Source: Bacteroides ovatus (lineage in GTDB: Bacteria > Bacteroidota > Bacteroidia > Bacteroidales > Bacteroidaceae). From it: a DNA stretch of 64,000 nucleotides. Location of the stretch: contig NZ_CP012938.1 of the NCBI RefSeq assembly GCF_001314995.1, positions 2,108,001 to 2,172,000 on the forward strand, read 5' to 3'. A model generated the notes under the pieces. It saw only the letters and a list, made by a program, of their open reading frames with translations, had not been told where the DNA came from and ran no database searches. Below, piece after piece: positions 8,827 through 43,163 of the stretch; the stretch's first letter is position 1; each line of letters opens with the position of its first letter. The position numbers were made by a program, and so were the translations under genes.

Positions 8827-8856
8827 AAAAAAGGACCTTTATTCAAGGTCCTTTTT
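8827..8856 (-). terminator. Bidirectional intrinsic terminator
   Basis: An AAAAAAGGACC stem pairs with GGTCCTTTTT around a 9-nt loop and carries T-tracts in both directions. It can end the + strand protease operon and the - strand small-protein gene, whose stop codon lies inside the loop. Confidence 0.8.
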
Positions 8857-9051
8857 AATCACTTCGTCCATTTCTTTTATACGTTTCTCACGGTTTTTAA
8901 TAGGACCGTCTTTCTTGTCATTCTTGAATACGTCATCGGCACGGTCGGCAACCTCGCCGCTCCATTCTTCAAACTGGTCCTTAGCCGGACGACCATTCGG
9001 CTCGATATTTTCCTCGGCTATCGAATCATGCCTGTTAATCATATCATCCAT
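8839..9051 (-). CDS. Small charged protein of unknown function
   Basis: 70 aa starting at MDDMINRH. An upstream in-frame ATG would add 44 low-quality residues, and I prefer the internal start because the charged, helical sequence begins there. The protein is rich in Asp, Glu and Lys with no signal peptide, so it is cytoplasmic. I recognise no domain. It lies downstream of the HTH gene on the same strand with a gap of about 130 bp, and could share its transcript. Its stop codon falls in the loop of a strong terminator. Confidence 0.55.
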   Translation of the reverse strand: MDDMINRHDSIAEENIEPNGRPAKDQFEEWSGEVADRADDVFKNDKKDGPIKNREKRIKEMDEVIKKDLE

Positions 9052-9179
9052 AAGTTTTCGTTTTAAAAGTTTATGGCTATAAGACAATACAAACGAAGAA
9101 AAGTTTTCTATTTTAATGATTTTTGAAGAAATCAGCCATGTTATTATACTATCAAAGAAACACTCCAGCCCAATCTGTG

Positions 9180-10046
9180 TCATTCATCCAGATACCTATA
9201 TAAATTGCAGTTGCCGGCAACGTCCAGTACATTCAGCTCTTTCAAGCGTTTTTCCACTTTCTTTTGTGAAACCAGCCCGAAATTCCGTAACATATCACGC
9301 AACTTCCTAAACCCATATTGAGAAGTGATTTGTAGCAGTTCCCGAAGTGTTTTTATATCAGCTTCAGAAATGATCCGCTGCGACCGAATATCGAATTTCA
9401 ATTCTGTGATAGGAGTATCAAGTAAAGCCTTTGCCGCTTTTATATCTTCGGGAATAAAAATTTCCGGATTCGTTTCTTCCGCCTCTCTCATGAGCATATC
9501 ATTATCAAAGCCATTTTGGCGGGATTTCATTTCATACATCCGTACTGTTGCTCTAAGACGGATATTTTCTTCCTTATAAGTCCTAAGGAATCCCGCTTGA
9601 GATTTTATTTCCTGTACAAGTCCCTCAAATGCCTTCTGTGCTTGACGATATTTCATATGTTTCCGGACACTAAAATCCTTAATATTTCCTTGTAAGACGG
9701 TATAAAGAAATAGTTGTCGTCTTTCATCATTCCTTATCATTCCGGCAAGCTCTTTTATTATTAACCGGATCAATGGGGTCAACTCTTTCAGCGATTGAAG
9801 TAGAAAAAATTCCTCTTCATTTTCCTTCATCTTCTCATCCATCCGGCGTTTGTGTTCTTCTTCGGAAAGACTGAACCGGATATTTCGTTCAAGACAATCC
9901 GTCAGACTGTTTTCATCAAGCATTAGATAATCGCCGACTTCTGAATAAATAATCTCTTGCCTTTTACACCAAGTAATAATACGTCTGGTAGATACCTGAT
10001 ACTTGGTTGCCGCTTCTTCAATACCAATCCATTGTTTTGTTGCCAT
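9180..10046 (-). CDS. HTH protein with RNA polymerase alpha-CTD-like tail
   Basis: 288 aa. Residues 1-50 form a MerR/excisionase-like helix-turn-helix (WIGIEEAATKYQVSTRRI). Residues 60-190 are highly charged and helical, probably coiled coil. Residues 208-272 resemble the helix-hairpin-helix C-terminal domain of the RNA polymerase alpha subunit: LLDTPITELKFDIRS, then IKTLRELLQIT, then NFGLVS. The DNA-contacting Arg of alpha (R265 in E. coli) aligns with R221, and the conserved Gly/Ser with G257/S260. The first 50 residues match the product at 42040-42471 (W-I-x-x-E-x-A-x-x-K-Y pattern). No family name is known to me. A DNA-binding regulator is inferred. Confidence 0.75.
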   Translation of the reverse strand: MATKQWIGIEEAATKYQVSTRRIITWCKRQEIIYSEVGDYLMLDENSLTDCLERNIRFSLSEEEHKRRMDEKMKENEEEFFLLQSLKELTPLIRLIIKELAGMIRNDERRQLFLYTVLQGNIKDFSVRKHMKYRQAQKAFEGLVQEIKSQAGFLRTYKEENIRLRATVRMYEMKSRQNGFDNDMLMREAEETNPEIFIPEDIKAAKALLDTPITELKFDIRSQRIISEADIKTLRELLQITSQYGFRKLRDMLRNFGLVSQKKVEKRLKELNVLDVAGNCNLYRYLDE

Positions 10047-10404: not shown

Positions 10405-10594
10405 GGGAGAATAGTTTCATCGGTGAGAAACTAAAGTTCCATCAGTGTGAAACTATAGTTTCATCAGTAAGAAACTAATAGTTCCAAGCAAGAGAAACTA
10501 AAGTTTCAAAGCGATGAAACTGTAGTTTCGAACCGCAAAACCAATAGTTTCAAGGCTTGAAACTATCGGTTACAAGGCAGGTCCCGCCCCGTAA
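10405..10594. repeat. 22-bp-phased palindrome array, copy 1
   Basis: Nine units start at 10405, 10427, 10449, 10471, 10494, 10516, 10538, 10559 and 10581 (intervals 22,22,22,23,22,22,21,22). Each has a 14-bp near-palindrome, best seen as GAAACTATAGTTTC, then a roughly 8-bp spacer that differs from unit to unit (ATCAGTAA, AAGCAAGA, AAAGCGAT, CAAGGCAG). The outer units are degenerate. The array lies about 100 bp upstream of the promoter of the HTH/alpha-CTD-like gene. Function is unknown. Confidence 0.85.
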
Positions 10595-10936
10595 GTACAG
10601 GGGTAATAAATAAAATAGCTTATCTGCCTGTGGTTAATACTATTCAGGCAATGAAACTTCATCTGTGATTTTTACTTGATTTGGGTATGCATCTCTACCA
10701 TACCGTCTTTGCAGTGCGTTTATCTCTTCTTAGCTTTGCAGTGACAGCATTATTGCCGTCACAGTGCTATCACCATGCTGCTGTCACGCCATTAACTTTT
10801 CATAATCAAACAGTTAAGTTACAATCTGTGACAGATGACAGCAAATTTATTTTTTTTATTTATTGGAGAGAGTATAAGTTCAACTTATAAATGCAATATT
10901 TCTTTTTTATTAATCGGACTTTAGATGCAAAGTTGC
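10595..10936. other. Intergenic stretch with TGTCAC palindromes
   Basis: About 340 bp without a supported gene. It holds a near-palindrome at 10741-10762 (GTGACAGCA facing TTGCCGTCAC), a second looser copy ending in GTCAC at 10787, and CTGTGACAGATGACAGC near 10832. The rest is AT-rich. Possible protein-binding sites; nothing else seen. Confidence 0.4.
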
Positions 10937-11953
10937 TTATTTATTCCGATAGAGTTGCGGACGGAAAGGAACATAAAGAGTGTAATTACTATCCGCCGGC
11001 TTTCCTCCCACCAATGCAGGTGACCATTTCGGCATTCCTTTGACAATGCGGAGAGCCTCCTCTGCAAATTCCGGATGAGTGGAACGTAGAATATGAGGAC
11101 GAAGGATAACCCCTTCTTTATCAATAGTAAACTCACATAAAGCATAACCCGAAACATTCTTCTCCAAAAGCCCTGACGGATAAACCATTTCACTGGCAAT
11201 ATATTCTTCCGGAGTCATCGCAGAGAAATGAGCAGGTTCCTCCACCTGTCTTCCGGAAAGTGTCTTTGAACGGGGACCCACCGGATAAATTCCGATATAC
11301 ATCGGCCGCTTATAAGCATCCGGCTCTTCCTTGGTGCGCTGTTGCAATGCTTTTAATAAAGCAGCAGCCTCCACTGCCAACGTCTGTTCAGAAATATTTT
11401 CCCCTCGGGATAACATATAAGCCGACTGACAAACCAACACGAGACGTTCCATCAACGTTCCCTTTTCCGGCGACCATTTACGTCCCATCTGCTCTTTACC
11501 TTTAGCATCCGTAGAAGAGAAAAAATAAACAATTCCATCCAAACCAGCCGTAGAACCGTCCAAATCCTGTACCTGCTCTGTCACCAAACGAAAGATAGCC
11601 CCTAAAGACTGATATAGGGAGGCACTAATGACAACCGATTTAGTATCCACCGTCACCGTCCCCTTCTCTGCCTGCCAATAAGTACGCGATAATGTGTTCG
11701 AAACCAGGGTATAACGTCCATTCCTCTTCTCTACCGACATTGCATACTCCGGCGAAAAGGAAGGGATAGCTGCAAAACGCGCATAAGGCTGTTTCTGGAA
11801 GCCCGTATTAAGTAAAGAAAACACACTACGATAATATTCGCCTAACTCGCCTGTATAAGTGGAAAAAGGTTTCACCGGCTCCAAATAGTCAATCTGGGCC
11901 GCAAGGCGAAAAGAAAAGGTTAAAAGCAGAAGACAGAAAACAATCTTTTTCAT
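10937..11953 (-). CDS. Exported protein with C-terminal TonB domain
   Basis: 338 aa from MKKIVFCLLLLTFSF, whose signal peptide ends near LAAQ. A longer reading frame exists upstream, but the signal peptide fixes this start. Residues about 245-338 carry a TonB C-terminal fold: SGYALCEFTIDKEGVILRPHILRS, then a P-x-W-x-P-A motif (MPKWSPA). There is no N-terminal membrane anchor or proline-rich spacer as in true TonB, so it is more likely a periplasmic TonB-domain protein than an energy transducer. It is divergent from pheS. Confidence 0.7.
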   Translation of the reverse strand: MKKIVFCLLLLTFSFRLAAQIDYLEPVKPFSTYTGELGEYYRSVFSLLNTGFQKQPYARFAAIPSFSPEYAMSVEKRNGRYTLVSNTLSRTYWQAEKGTVTVDTKSVVISASLYQSLGAIFRLVTEQVQDLDGSTAGLDGIVYFFSSTDAKGKEQMGRKWSPEKGTLMERLVLVCQSAYMLSRGENISEQTLAVEAAALLKALQQRTKEEPDAYKRPMYIGIYPVGPRSKTLSGRQVEEPAHFSAMTPEEYIASEMVYPSGLLEKNVSGYALCEFTIDKEGVILRPHILRSTHPEFAEEALRIVKGMPKWSPALVGGKPADSNYTLYVPFRPQLYRNK

Positions 11954-12023
11954 AAGTTGCCGGATTTTCGGTATATATCGGCAACAAAGATACAAATTAT
12001 TTCGATGGTTCGTGATAAAATTA

Positions 12024-12031
12024 TATCTTTG
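12024..12031 (+). promoter_or_regulatory. Predicted -7 promoter box for pheS
   Basis: TATCTTTG, about 43 bp before the pheS start codon, fits the Bacteroides TAnnTTTG element. Confidence 0.6.
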
Positions 12032-12073
12032 CACGGTTTTTACTAAGAAACTGAATAACAATACATCAAAAAT

Positions 12074-13093
12074 ATGATAGCTAAGATTGAACAACTTCTG
12101 AAAGAGGTGGAAGCCTTACACGCCTCCAATGCCGAAGAACTCGAAGCTCTCCGCATCAAATACCTAAGTAAGAAGGGAGCCATTAACGACTTAATGGCAG
12201 ATTTCCGTAATGTAGCTGCCGAACAGAAAAAAGAAGTCGGCATGAGACTGAATGAACTGAAAACAAAAGCGCAGGACAAAATCAACGCGCTGAAAGAAAT
12301 GTTTGAAAGTCAGGACAACGATTGTGACGGACTGGATTTGACGCGTTCGGCTTATCCTGTGGAACTCGGTACACGCCACCCGCTCACCATTGTAAAGAAC
12401 GAAATCATTGATATCTTTGCCCGTCTGGGATTCAGCATTGCCGAAGGTCCGGAAATTGAAGATGACTGGCACGTGTTCTCGGCACTGAACTTTGCCGAAG
12501 ACCATCCGGCACGCGATATGCAGGATACTTTCTTTATCGAAGCTCACCCGGACGTAGTATTGCGTACACATACTTCTTCTGTACAGACTCGTGTGATGGA
12601 AACTTCACAGCCTCCTATCCGCATCATCTGTCCGGGACGTGTATATCGTAACGAAGCTATCAGCTATCGCGCACACTGTTTCTTCCATCAGGTAGAAGCG
12701 CTGTATGTAGATAAAAACGTATCATTCACCGACTTGAAGCAGGTATTGCTGCTCTTCGCCAAAGAAATGTTCGGTGCTGATACAAAGATCCGTCTGCGTC
12801 CGTCTTACTTCCCGTTTACCGAACCAAGTGCGGAAATGGATATCAGCTGTAATATCTGCGGCGGTAAAGGATGTCCGTTCTGTAAACACACCGGCTGGGT
12901 AGAAATCCTCGGTTGCGGTATGGTAGACCCGAACGTACTTGAATCAAATGGTATAGACAGCAAAATATACAGCGGTTATGCCCTCGGTATGGGCATCGAG
13001 CGTATCACAAACCTGAAATATCAGGTGAAAGACCTCCGTATGTTCTCTGAAAACGATACACGCTTCCTAAAAGAATTCGAAGCGGCATATTAA
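12074..13093 (+). CDS. pheS: Phenylalanine-tRNA ligase alpha subunit
   Basis: 339 aa, the usual length. An N-terminal coiled coil (residues 1-80) for tRNA binding is followed by the class II catalytic core: motif 2 region FHQVEALYVDKNVSFTDLK, the HTSSVQTRVM segment, and motif 3 GMGIERITNLKYQVKDLR near the C-terminus. It pairs with PheT, not in this window, to charge tRNA-Phe in the cytoplasm. No leader-peptide attenuator was recognised upstream. Confidence 0.97.
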   Translation: MIAKIEQLLKEVEALHASNAEELEALRIKYLSKKGAINDLMADFRNVAAEQKKEVGMRLNELKTKAQDKINALKEMFESQDNDCDGLDLTRSAYPVELGTRHPLTIVKNEIIDIFARLGFSIAEGPEIEDDWHVFSALNFAEDHPARDMQDTFFIEAHPDVVLRTHTSSVQTRVMETSQPPIRIICPGRVYRNEAISYRAHCFFHQVEALYVDKNVSFTDLKQVLLLFAKEMFGADTKIRLRPSYFPFTEPSAEMDISCNICGGKGCPFCKHTGWVEILGCGMVDPNVLESNGIDSKIYSGYALGMGIERITNLKYQVKDLRMFSENDTRFLKEFEAAY

Positions 13094-25312: not shown

Positions 25313-25537
25313 ATGAAAAAGCGAATTACACAGGACGATTACGTTAAAGCGAATCGTAAAGCTAGCCGTGAGGCAGAAATTGAGATGTACGGACACCCTA
25401 TTTGTCACAAACGAGTGCACCAGTCAAAGAAAGTATATAACCGCAGAAAGATAAAGGCAGCCGACAAAAAGCTGCCTTATTTTTTTGTCTTCAAAATAGC
25501 GTCACTATCCTCCAGACATAGCGACACTATACAATAG
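25313..25537 (+). CDS. Small basic protein, unknown function
   Basis: 74 aa as read to the first stop. Residues 1-55 are strongly basic and look conserved in style (MKKRITQDDYVKANRKASRE, then HKRVHQSKKVYNRRK). The last part is read through an intrinsic terminator (25454-25486) and into the first two units of a repeat array, so its native C-terminus is doubtful. A promoter box lies just upstream. Possibly nucleic-acid binding, from charge only. Confidence 0.6.
   Translation: MKKRITQDDYVKANRKASREAEIEMYGHPICHKRVHQSKKVYNRRKIKAADKKLPYFFVFKIASLSSRHSDTIQ
25454..25486 (+). terminator. Intrinsic terminator inside the small ORF
   Basis: AAGGCAGC and GCTGCCTT form an 8-bp stem with a 9-nt loop, followed by a run of seven T. 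It sits about 50 bp before the stop codon of the small basic protein. Confidence 0.75.
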
Positions 25538-25585
25538 AAATGGCGTCACTATCATGATAGGATAGCGTCACTATATTTAGGGGAT
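25496..25585. repeat. 22-bp-phased repeat array with a different word, copy 3
   Basis: Four units carry the 13-bp word ATAGCGTCACTAT at 25496, 25518 (ATAGCGACACTAT), 25540 (ATGGCGTCACTAT) and 25562, exactly 22 bp apart. The 9-bp spacers are unrelated (CCTCCAGAC, ACAATAGAA, CATGATAGG). The word has ATAG/CTAT ends in inverted orientation. The array lies between the convergent small-protein and carbonic anhydrase genes. Confidence 0.85.
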
Positions 25586-42039: not shown

Positions 42040-42471
42040 ATGCCAAAATGGATTAGTGTAGAAAAAGCAGTGATTAAGTATCACATCGAAAAAGAAGCAA
42101 TCCTGCTTTGGGTGGAAATGGGACAATTCCCTATGTTATACATAGACAATGTTCCGAACGTTGACGAAGAATGTATTCTGGAACTCTTTCGCCGAAGTAA
42201 AGCCGGCATTACAGCAGAATATATTGATACGCTGGAACAACTGTGCATAGACAAAACAATGGTCTGCGAGAAATACGCCCACATTATTCAATTGAAAGAA
42301 AAGGAAATTCAGCTGCAGAAGGAAATAAATACGTTGATAAACGAAATACAGGCAGCAATGAAGAGACAAAACGAACGAATCCGGGATTTGAAAAAAGCGA
42401 TTGGACAGAATAATAATGTTATACGTAGCGACAGTTGGATAAAAAGGCTGCGCAAAAGGTTTCAATGGTGA
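42040..42471 (+). CDS. HTH coiled-coil protein, relative of the 9180-10046 product
   Basis: 143 aa. Residues 3-50 (WISVEKAVIKYHIEKEAILLW) match the N-terminal HTH of the alpha-CTD-like protein in spacing of W, I, E, A, K-Y and W. A coiled coil spans about 75-125, and the C-terminus is basic (WIKRLRKRFQW). There is no alpha-CTD-like domain. It follows a predicted structured RNA and is followed by a 22-bp array, as the first gene also has both. A DNA-binding role is inferred. Confidence 0.65.
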   Translation: MPKWISVEKAVIKYHIEKEAILLWVEMGQFPMLYIDNVPNVDEECILELFRRSKAGITAEYIDTLEQLCIDKTMVCEKYAHIIQLKEKEIQLQKEINTLINEIQAAMKRQNERIRDLKKAIGQNNNVIRSDSWIKRLRKRFQW

Positions 42472-42632: not shown

Positions 42633-42762
42633 CTATAAAGTTGAAAAAACATGAAAACATCTGCCACCTGCAACCAAACGCGTGTAATGCACTAGTTGAT
42701 AAATAGTTAGAGCGTTGCAGATACCTGCGGCAGATAGGTTGCAGATAAAGTATCTGCAACAC
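42633..42762. repeat. Left arm of a 130-bp inverted repeat
   Basis: It matches the reverse complement of 43035-43163 with roughly eight substitutions and one indel by eye (about 93%). The inner end is CTGCAACAC. Together the arms enclose the second 22-bp array. Confidence 0.85.
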
Positions 42763-42801
42763 AGTATAAACCTTACATAAGCTAATTCTCCAGGAGGGCA
42801 A

Positions 42802-42824: not shown

Positions 42825-42993
42825 CCCGTTTCCAGGCGGGGAACTGTCGTTCCCGGAATTAGAAATTACAATTTCCACGGCAGGAAACGAAAGTTTCTAA
42901 GGCGAGACACTACAGTTTCCACGTAAGGATACTGTCGTTTCCCCGTAGAGACACCACCATTTCTCCATAGAGTCACCCCAATTATCCCATAGC
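42819..42993. repeat. 22-bp-phased palindrome array, copy 2
   Basis: Units start at 42819, 42840, 42862, 42884, 42906, 42928, 42950 and 42972 (intervals 21, then 22 six times). The words include GGAACTGTCGTTCC, GAAATTACAATTTC, GAAACGAAAGTTTC, GACACTACAGTTTC and GATACTGTCGTTTC. The spacers are 8 bp (7 bp after the first unit) and vary: CACGGCAG, TAAGGCGA, CACGTAAG. The same grammar and nearly the same word occur in the array at 10405-10594. Confidence 0.85.
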
Positions 42994-43034
42994 TTTGCAC
43001 AAAGGAATCAAGGCTTTTTCTTTGATTATATAAC

Positions 43035-43163
43035 GTGTTGCAGATACTTTATCTGCAACCTATCTGCCACAGGTATCTGCAACGTTCCAACTATTTATTA
43101 ACTAGTGTATTACACGCTTTTCGTTGCAGGTGGCAGATGTTTTTATGTTTTTCAACTTTATAG
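43035..43163. repeat. Right arm of the 130-bp inverted repeat
   Basis: Reverse-complement partner of 42633-42762. No clear target-site duplication was seen outside the arms. Confidence 0.85.

Follow-up and report, generated by a model that had tools for sequence, protein, structure and literature searches.

A 22-bp phased array of GAAAC/GTTTC half-sites in Bacteroides ovatus is one of a dispersed class of intergenic arrays, candidate protein-binding sites

REP and BIME elements with their RAYT transposases are dispersed intergenic palindromes of alternating orientation and regular spacing, and the available parts of the sources describe them as targets of insertion elements, with a word that is linked to the associated gene (PMC2817692, PMC1525189). 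The BrickBuilt MITE of Porphyromonas gingivalis is built of 23-nt tandem units, always intergenic and variable in number, with leader and tail segments; in the accessible text of its description the units are direct repeats with IS5-like ends (PMC4596501). The initiators SaPI Rep and SCC Cch2 (PMC7581432) and PLE RepA (PMC7145576), according to the portions of these papers at hand, read repeats that lie beside their own genes. We describe here a phased array found in a stretch of 64,000 nucleotides, hereafter the window. The array is real, widespread and conserved at the DNA level, and it is part of a wider class of 22-bp arrays with other words, which is new in this analysis. No description of the array or of the wider class was found in an open-licence library, and the term undescribed is limited to that library.

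The coordinates of the array and of the other features of the window are collected in Table 1. The 22-bp period reported in an earlier note on this DNA was borne out, with GAAAC and GTTTC half-sites alternating from 10414 to 10573; the four half-sites that are not exact read GTTCC (twice), AAAAC and GTTAC. A 23-bp step balanced by a 21-bp step, also reported there, was seen again in the dyad steps of 22, 22, 23, 22, 21 and 22. The count of nine units was too high, since seven dyads are recognisable and those at two further expected sites (GGGAG at 10405 and GTCCC at 10581) are not. With at most one mismatch, GAAACN4GTTTC occurs 10 times in the window compared to 3.24 expected, and 0 of 100 shuffles were as high; four of these dyads lie in the window array and three in the second array near 42.9 kb. 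A word-independent scan of the 64 kb gave three arrays at lag 22, two or three at lag 14, one at lag 20 and none at any of the remaining lags from 14 to 32.

Table 1 Features of the window. Positions are those of the window; a dot denotes a feature without strand.
Feature	Position	Strand	Remark
Phased array (window array)	10414..10573	.	15 alternating GTTTC/GAAAC half-sites in phase, 11 exact, period 22 bp
Half-site starts, window array	10414, 10427, 10436, 10449, 10458, 10471, 10481, 10494, 10503, 10516, 10525, 10537, 10547, 10559, 10569		
Dyad starts, window array	10427, 10449, 10471, 10494, 10516, 10537, 10559		
Array plus tail	10427..10908	.	67% identity to stretch upstream of BT4734/VapE gene at 6.13 Mb, same genome (L253)
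Tail module with repeated GTGACAG/CTGTCAC words	10637..10860	.	By eye; several other arrays adjoin similar modules
288-aa protein, weak N-terminal HTH_17 match, RNA polymerase alpha-CTD-like C-terminal part	9180..10046	-	Neighbour of the array
Conserved 114-aa ORF	8839..9183	-	Left border of the syntenic gap
TonB_C-domain gene	10937..12094	-	Right border of the syntenic gap; frame as listed, putative start
Second GAAAC-word array, more degenerate	42840..42965	.	Between two inverted arms
Inverted repeat around second array, left arm	42645..42768	+	124 bp, 92% complementary
Inverted repeat around second array, right arm	43029..43152	-	
143-aa HTH-family gene	42040..42471	+	Beside second array
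Third 22-bp phased array	25490..25577	.	Other word (ATAGCGTCACTAT)

In order to describe the anatomy of the arrays we counted steps between half-sites in 141 arrays, 82 of which came from the matches listed in the named collection. Steps between convergent half-sites measure 12 or 13 bp (347 and 94 steps), and those between divergent ones 10 or 9 bp (296 and 84 steps). The unit is thus N7+N5 or N8+N4, its sum is always 22, and the pitch is held by compensation. GGAAC is the commonest of the 130 imperfect in-phase sites (56). The core of parS, the ParB site, consists of GTTTC and GAAAC joined by four bases and has the same half-site letters. However, convergent half-sites here have 7 or 8 bases between them (152 and 73 pairs) and only 3 pairs have 4, and a parS-like site was ruled out by this spacing.

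A pattern of three half-sites has 75+73 matches in the genome of the window (G000), 63+62 in a slightly narrower form and 35+39 in a stricter form; reversed control patterns have 0 matches there. The narrower form matches in 67 of 119 genomes sampled from the genus and in 49 of the 70 high-quality ones, with at least five matches in 49 of the 119 (counted by hand from the table) and the highest count in G378 (127+123). The 52 genomes of the genus that have no match include nearly complete ones. Control patterns match in 16 of the 119 genomes, mostly one to three times (3+4 in G310), and in G361 the control (9+10) is above the pattern count. By a chain criterion applied to fetched stretches there are 23 arrays in the window's genome, 20 in G403, 11 in G336 and 5 in G324. 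In an even sample of the phylum the stricter form matches in 2 of 296 genomes, both of the genus Bacteroides, but this form misses N4/N8 arrays, as in G230, which has 0 matches by it and 45+44 by the narrower pattern of the genus sample. Among the matches listed in the named collection are Bacteroides, Prevotella, Parabacteroides, Paraprevotella, Mediterranea, Porphyromonas and Treponema; Evansella, Pluralibacter and Coatesbacteria are also among the matches listed, and these may be due to chance or to another repeat. The Treponema MAG records L058, L071 and L089 hold well-formed GAAAC/GTTTC arrays of equal pitch. Arrays opened in G230, G370 and G360 are flanked by ordinary genes, and the stretch opened in G344 has no array of five half-sites. 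A phage origin of the arrays was set aside; 13 stretches of IMG/VR match the strict pattern, which misses N4/N8 arrays.

We then compared half-sites and spacers at 23 loci having a matching G000 locus, 16 of which were aligned first and the remaining seven separately. The 16 pairs have 34 changed columns of 730 in half-sites, 234 of 1030 in spacers and 780 of 3501 in the flanks (half-sites versus spacers, Fisher p 2.7e-28). Nine cleanly aligned G000/G403 pairs have 0 changes in 420 half-site columns and 65 in 583 spacer columns, in a subset that was picked after the alignments had been seen and that excludes the badly aligning G403 pairs L028/L281 and L036/L298, which account for all 15 half-site changes among the G403 pairs. 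At the seven remaining loci, which are distant, split or doubtful orthologues, 46 of 332 half-site columns and 207 of 427 spacer columns are changed. We put weight on the close pairs only, because clearly non-orthologous arrays aligned in register also look half-site-conserved; the search for arrays in G403 and G336 relied on exact half-sites, and conserved arrays are thereby favoured. Word and period persist among relatives and spacers vary, as the earlier note had anticipated. Its description of the spacers as unrelated is correct in part; within the genome of the window a spacer can be shared by several arrays, and of 57 seven-base spacers six read TCACCGA and six ACACCGA (either strand). 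In the nine pairs, 17 of 25 changed spacers carry a single substitution. Inversion was tried for the five spacers with at least three changes in these G403 pairs; none is better explained by it, with one tie. The 11 gaps inside the 16 aligned arrays measure 22 bp (three times, once at an array edge and without words), 44, 25, 21, 47, 31, 3, 2 and 1. For Bacteroides genetics these orthologous arrays form a natural collection in which the conserved and the free positions are known.

The arrays are probably docking platforms for a putative DNA-binding protein rather than a switch of the neighbouring gene. A dimeric or oligomeric protein would dock on half-sites that alternate in orientation and come roughly every helical turn, and its dimers would line one face of the DNA next to each other at 22-bp intervals, in the manner of replication-origin iterons or a partition site. 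Word and phase would matter to such a protein, spacers would be free, and binding may be cooperative. One half-site per turn, alternating orientation, fixed pitch and free spacers fit side-by-side dimers on one face. We see about an even chance that the window array is an orphan copy of a class of intergenic, iteron-like binding arrays that acts at the DNA level and has a putative protein reader.

The placement of the arrays bears on this docking reading and on the alternatives. In four genomes, 58 of 59 arrays lie outside ORFs of at least 100 aa and one overlaps an ORF. With genes taken as ORF calls and orthologues entering repeatedly, the 58 arrays lie in 13 convergent, 41 tandem and 4 divergent gaps, all 143 gaps of at least 150 bp in the same stretches being 27 convergent, 88 tandem and 28 divergent; arrays are thus rare in divergent gaps (4/58 versus 28/143), and their distance to 3' ends has a median of 148 bp (n=67), that to 5' ends a median of 332 bp (n=49). 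Such dispersed, intergenic copies, nearer 3' ends and rare in divergent gaps, could also belong to a selfish REP- or MITE-like repeat that spreads in trans, with half-sites kept by a mobilising enzyme or by ongoing copying and with no host function. Four arrays share about 450 bp of common element, and inverted arms of 124 bp enclose the second window array, although no such pair was listed around 10414..10573. Four of the five copies of a transposase-bearing composite element, presumably IS110-like and IS3-like, adjoin arrays (L022, L032, L040 and L043). Against a selfish repeat, the search for a Y1_Tnp/RAYT gene (PF01797) gave 0 matches in the window's genome and was positive in 5 of 14 control genomes, and orthologous arrays stay put and have acquired point changes in their spacers alone, a pattern not expected if copies arrived from other places. 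We regard this alternative as possible, although on the unlikely side. The array that is split at L040 (G000) is unbroken in G403 (L290).

Compared to the described elements, the arrays resemble REP/BIME in being extragenic and dispersed with half-sites of alternating orientation, but have a strict 22-bp pitch, 5-base half-sites, free spacers and no Y1_Tnp gene; membership in the REP/RAYT system was ruled out by the absence of that gene from the window's genome. BrickBuilt, as far as its available description goes, comes closest among the described elements of the order that were found. By description and not by letters, it shares the bacterial order and the short tandem intergenic units, variable in number and with leader and tail segments, but differs in its 23-nt direct-repeat unit and IS5-like ends, versus the 22-bp pitch here.

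The position near 3' ends and the dyad in every unit would suit an RNA-level element as well, i.e. hairpins transcribed as part of a 3' or 5' untranslated region and acting on mRNA stability or termination. Such hairpins would permit GGAAC through G-U pairing; yet in the 41 tandem gaps GGAAC is not favoured over GTTCC in the sense of transcription (11 versus 16), and the imperfect half-sites have no strand bias. Rfam 15 gave no match above the gathering score, only two sub-threshold matches and, in a second search, one tRNA, and the strict 22-bp pitch has no obvious reason in RNA. We consider action at the RNA level improbable. The earlier note had argued for phased protein sites or hairpins and against tandem duplication; the constraint on word and pitch upholds this in part, and the lack of a strand bias speaks against RNA hairpins.

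The earlier note had further tied the array to the adjacent HTH/alpha-CTD-like gene, as its operator. The two are adjacent in the window and in G307, and HTH genes adjoin two of the window's three arrays. The 288-aa protein matches RNA_pol_A_CTD with 24.7 bits (gathering score 23.8) and HTH_17 weakly. We compared ten relatives between the 114-aa ORF and the tonB-like gene. The orthologous array is present in G336 and G403; G307 and G378 have GAAAC arrays with different spacers and G399 and G385 degenerate ones; no array was found in this gap in G383, G351, G296 and G324, where it measures 50 to 128 bp. The HTH gene is present at the locus in G000 and, of the ten relatives, only in G307; G336 has the array without the gene, and absence of the gene from G403, where the DNA beside the array is masked, was taken from a genome-wide protein search. 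At 50% identity or more the protein is found in 3 of 119 genomes, versus 67 of 119 for the array pattern, with a full-length 25% match in G377, and the genome of the window holds about 23 arrays and a single full-length copy of the gene. A profile from four HTH relatives gave 29 hits in fetched loci, some being the same gene twice. Among loci chosen by HTH homology, 7 of 18 have a 22-bp array, whatever its word; these loci give 8 peaks in 62,144 bases, compared at equal setting with 3 lag-22 peaks in the 64,000-base window. The array words do not follow the HTH tree: relatives beside GAAAC arrays stand in separate parts of it, and a protein 63% identical to the L178/L259 pair adjoins a TGTGGGCT-word array. 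HTH genes and 22-bp arrays share neighbourhoods and not specificity, and the adjacent HTH gene is not the partner of the array. Co-occurrence, synteny and the comparison of HTH tree with array word led us to reject the operator, which we consider very improbable; the tempting local reading fails upon comparison of relatives.

A neutral minisatellite, with a 22-bp unit duplicated in tandem and then drifting, would account for near-identical units in some arrays (L068) and for the orthologue gaps, four of the 11 being 22 or 44 bp and two more carrying one unit, but we give it very little credence, as half-sites and spacers diverge at very different rates within the same arrays and one word recurs in unlinked arrays and several genera.

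For the reader of the docking platforms, the best genetic lead is the VapE family (BT4734/BF3469), whose proteins have a PrimPol-like domain and a VapE-type helicase. The window array and its tail belong to one element type with the array that precedes the VapE gene at 6.13 Mb of the same genome. That copy lies 190 bp before a 696-aa gene, whose product has the domains BT4734-like_N, VapE-like and DUF3874, an N-terminal part that matches the PrimPol model of PADLOC and, as its sole PDB relative, the VapE protein 7pds; the opened records name the family BT4734/BF3469. The family is present in 89 of the 119 genomes of the genus sample (E 1e-10). We scanned 70 VapE loci, 69 of them with enough upstream sequence, using 60 shuffles each. 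The upstream regions of 48 of the 69 beat all 60 shuffles, the best lag being 22 for 44 of them, 23 for two, 21 for one and 14 for one, the last an artefact of masked bases; two loci had been fetched twice, leaving lag 22 in 42 of 67 distinct loci, orthologues included. Treated equally, 8 of 40 window genes beat their shuffles, and the 2 with lag 22 are both due to arrays already known.

The VapE-upstream arrays have the words GAAAC/GTTTC, GAACCCATGGGTTC, TGTGGGCT, GCAGTTGC, CTAAAG and others, and arrays of other words also occur in genomes without a GAAAC match (G298, G320, G342 and G393). A set of 939,619 bases, redundant in part and taken largely from the surroundings of arrays or VapE genes, has 92 peaks at lag 22 and 0 to 5 at the other lags from 14 to 32; 21 of these 92 peaks contain three GAAAC-type words or fewer. 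Placed on a tree of 69 VapE proteins, the word classes, labelled by our own word rules, change 19 times; shuffling gave a mean of 39.1, and none of 200 shuffles was as low. Linkage alone could make the word cluster on this tree, and near-copies add to the clustering. Retention of the 22-bp pitch across interchangeable words points to a common protein architecture in which geometry is fixed and specificity drifts, and the BT4734/VapE genes gain a candidate cis site.

As with iterons in the available text of the sources cited above, repeats lie beside a helicase or initiator gene, and the array word tracks the clade of the protein at VapE genes. The differences are that the array here lies upstream of the VapE gene, that many arrays have no such gene nearby and that an origin role is putative. 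Phased repeats beside an initiator-type gene were found at 44 of the 69 VapE genes; the window array has no VapE gene beside it and so lacks this arrangement. At VapE loci an oligomeric reader cognate to VapE might use the arrays as origins or operators. The GAAAC pattern occurs without a VapE match (E 1e-10) in G327, G344, G346, G360 and G238, which are 84 to 99% complete and were taken from the listed VapE-less genomes (ten further ones lie outside that listing). Because of these five genomes VapE was ruled out as the only reader, and orphan GAAAC arrays would need a broader one. The VapE link is therefore a lead and not a result. A plasmid or phage location of VapE was set aside, although VapE matches 59 plasmid and 252 phage records by tblastn. 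Among six records opened, those labelled plasmid have ordinary chromosomal-type neighbours, and the two labelled phage are scaffolds without annotation; we claim no mobility for the gene. We can also imagine, as a rather unlikely case, a Bacteroidales replicase-linked counterpart of REP/RAYT, in which PrimPol-VapE genes would have an iteron ladder of clade-specific word and almost invariant 22-bp pitch, and orphan ladders would be seeded across chromosomes and kept under selection on word and pitch, e.g. as decoy, incompatibility or chromosome-organising anchor sites.

Three minor observations were made by eye. At nine VapE loci viewed, the genes divergent across the array include one HTH-family gene and three HU-like genes (two records annotate HU). 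Next to the arrays at L023, L026, L029, L031, L036, L044, L045, L220 and L261 lies a second repeat module, with the words GGTGATAGGTGATAG, AACCTATCACC, CGATGAATAAAGG or variants of them. One slot of a repeated element has its seven-base spacer in both orientations, TCGGTGT/ACACCGA, as if loops flip (L026, L037, L039 and L045 versus G403:C1:2833380 and 4459461).
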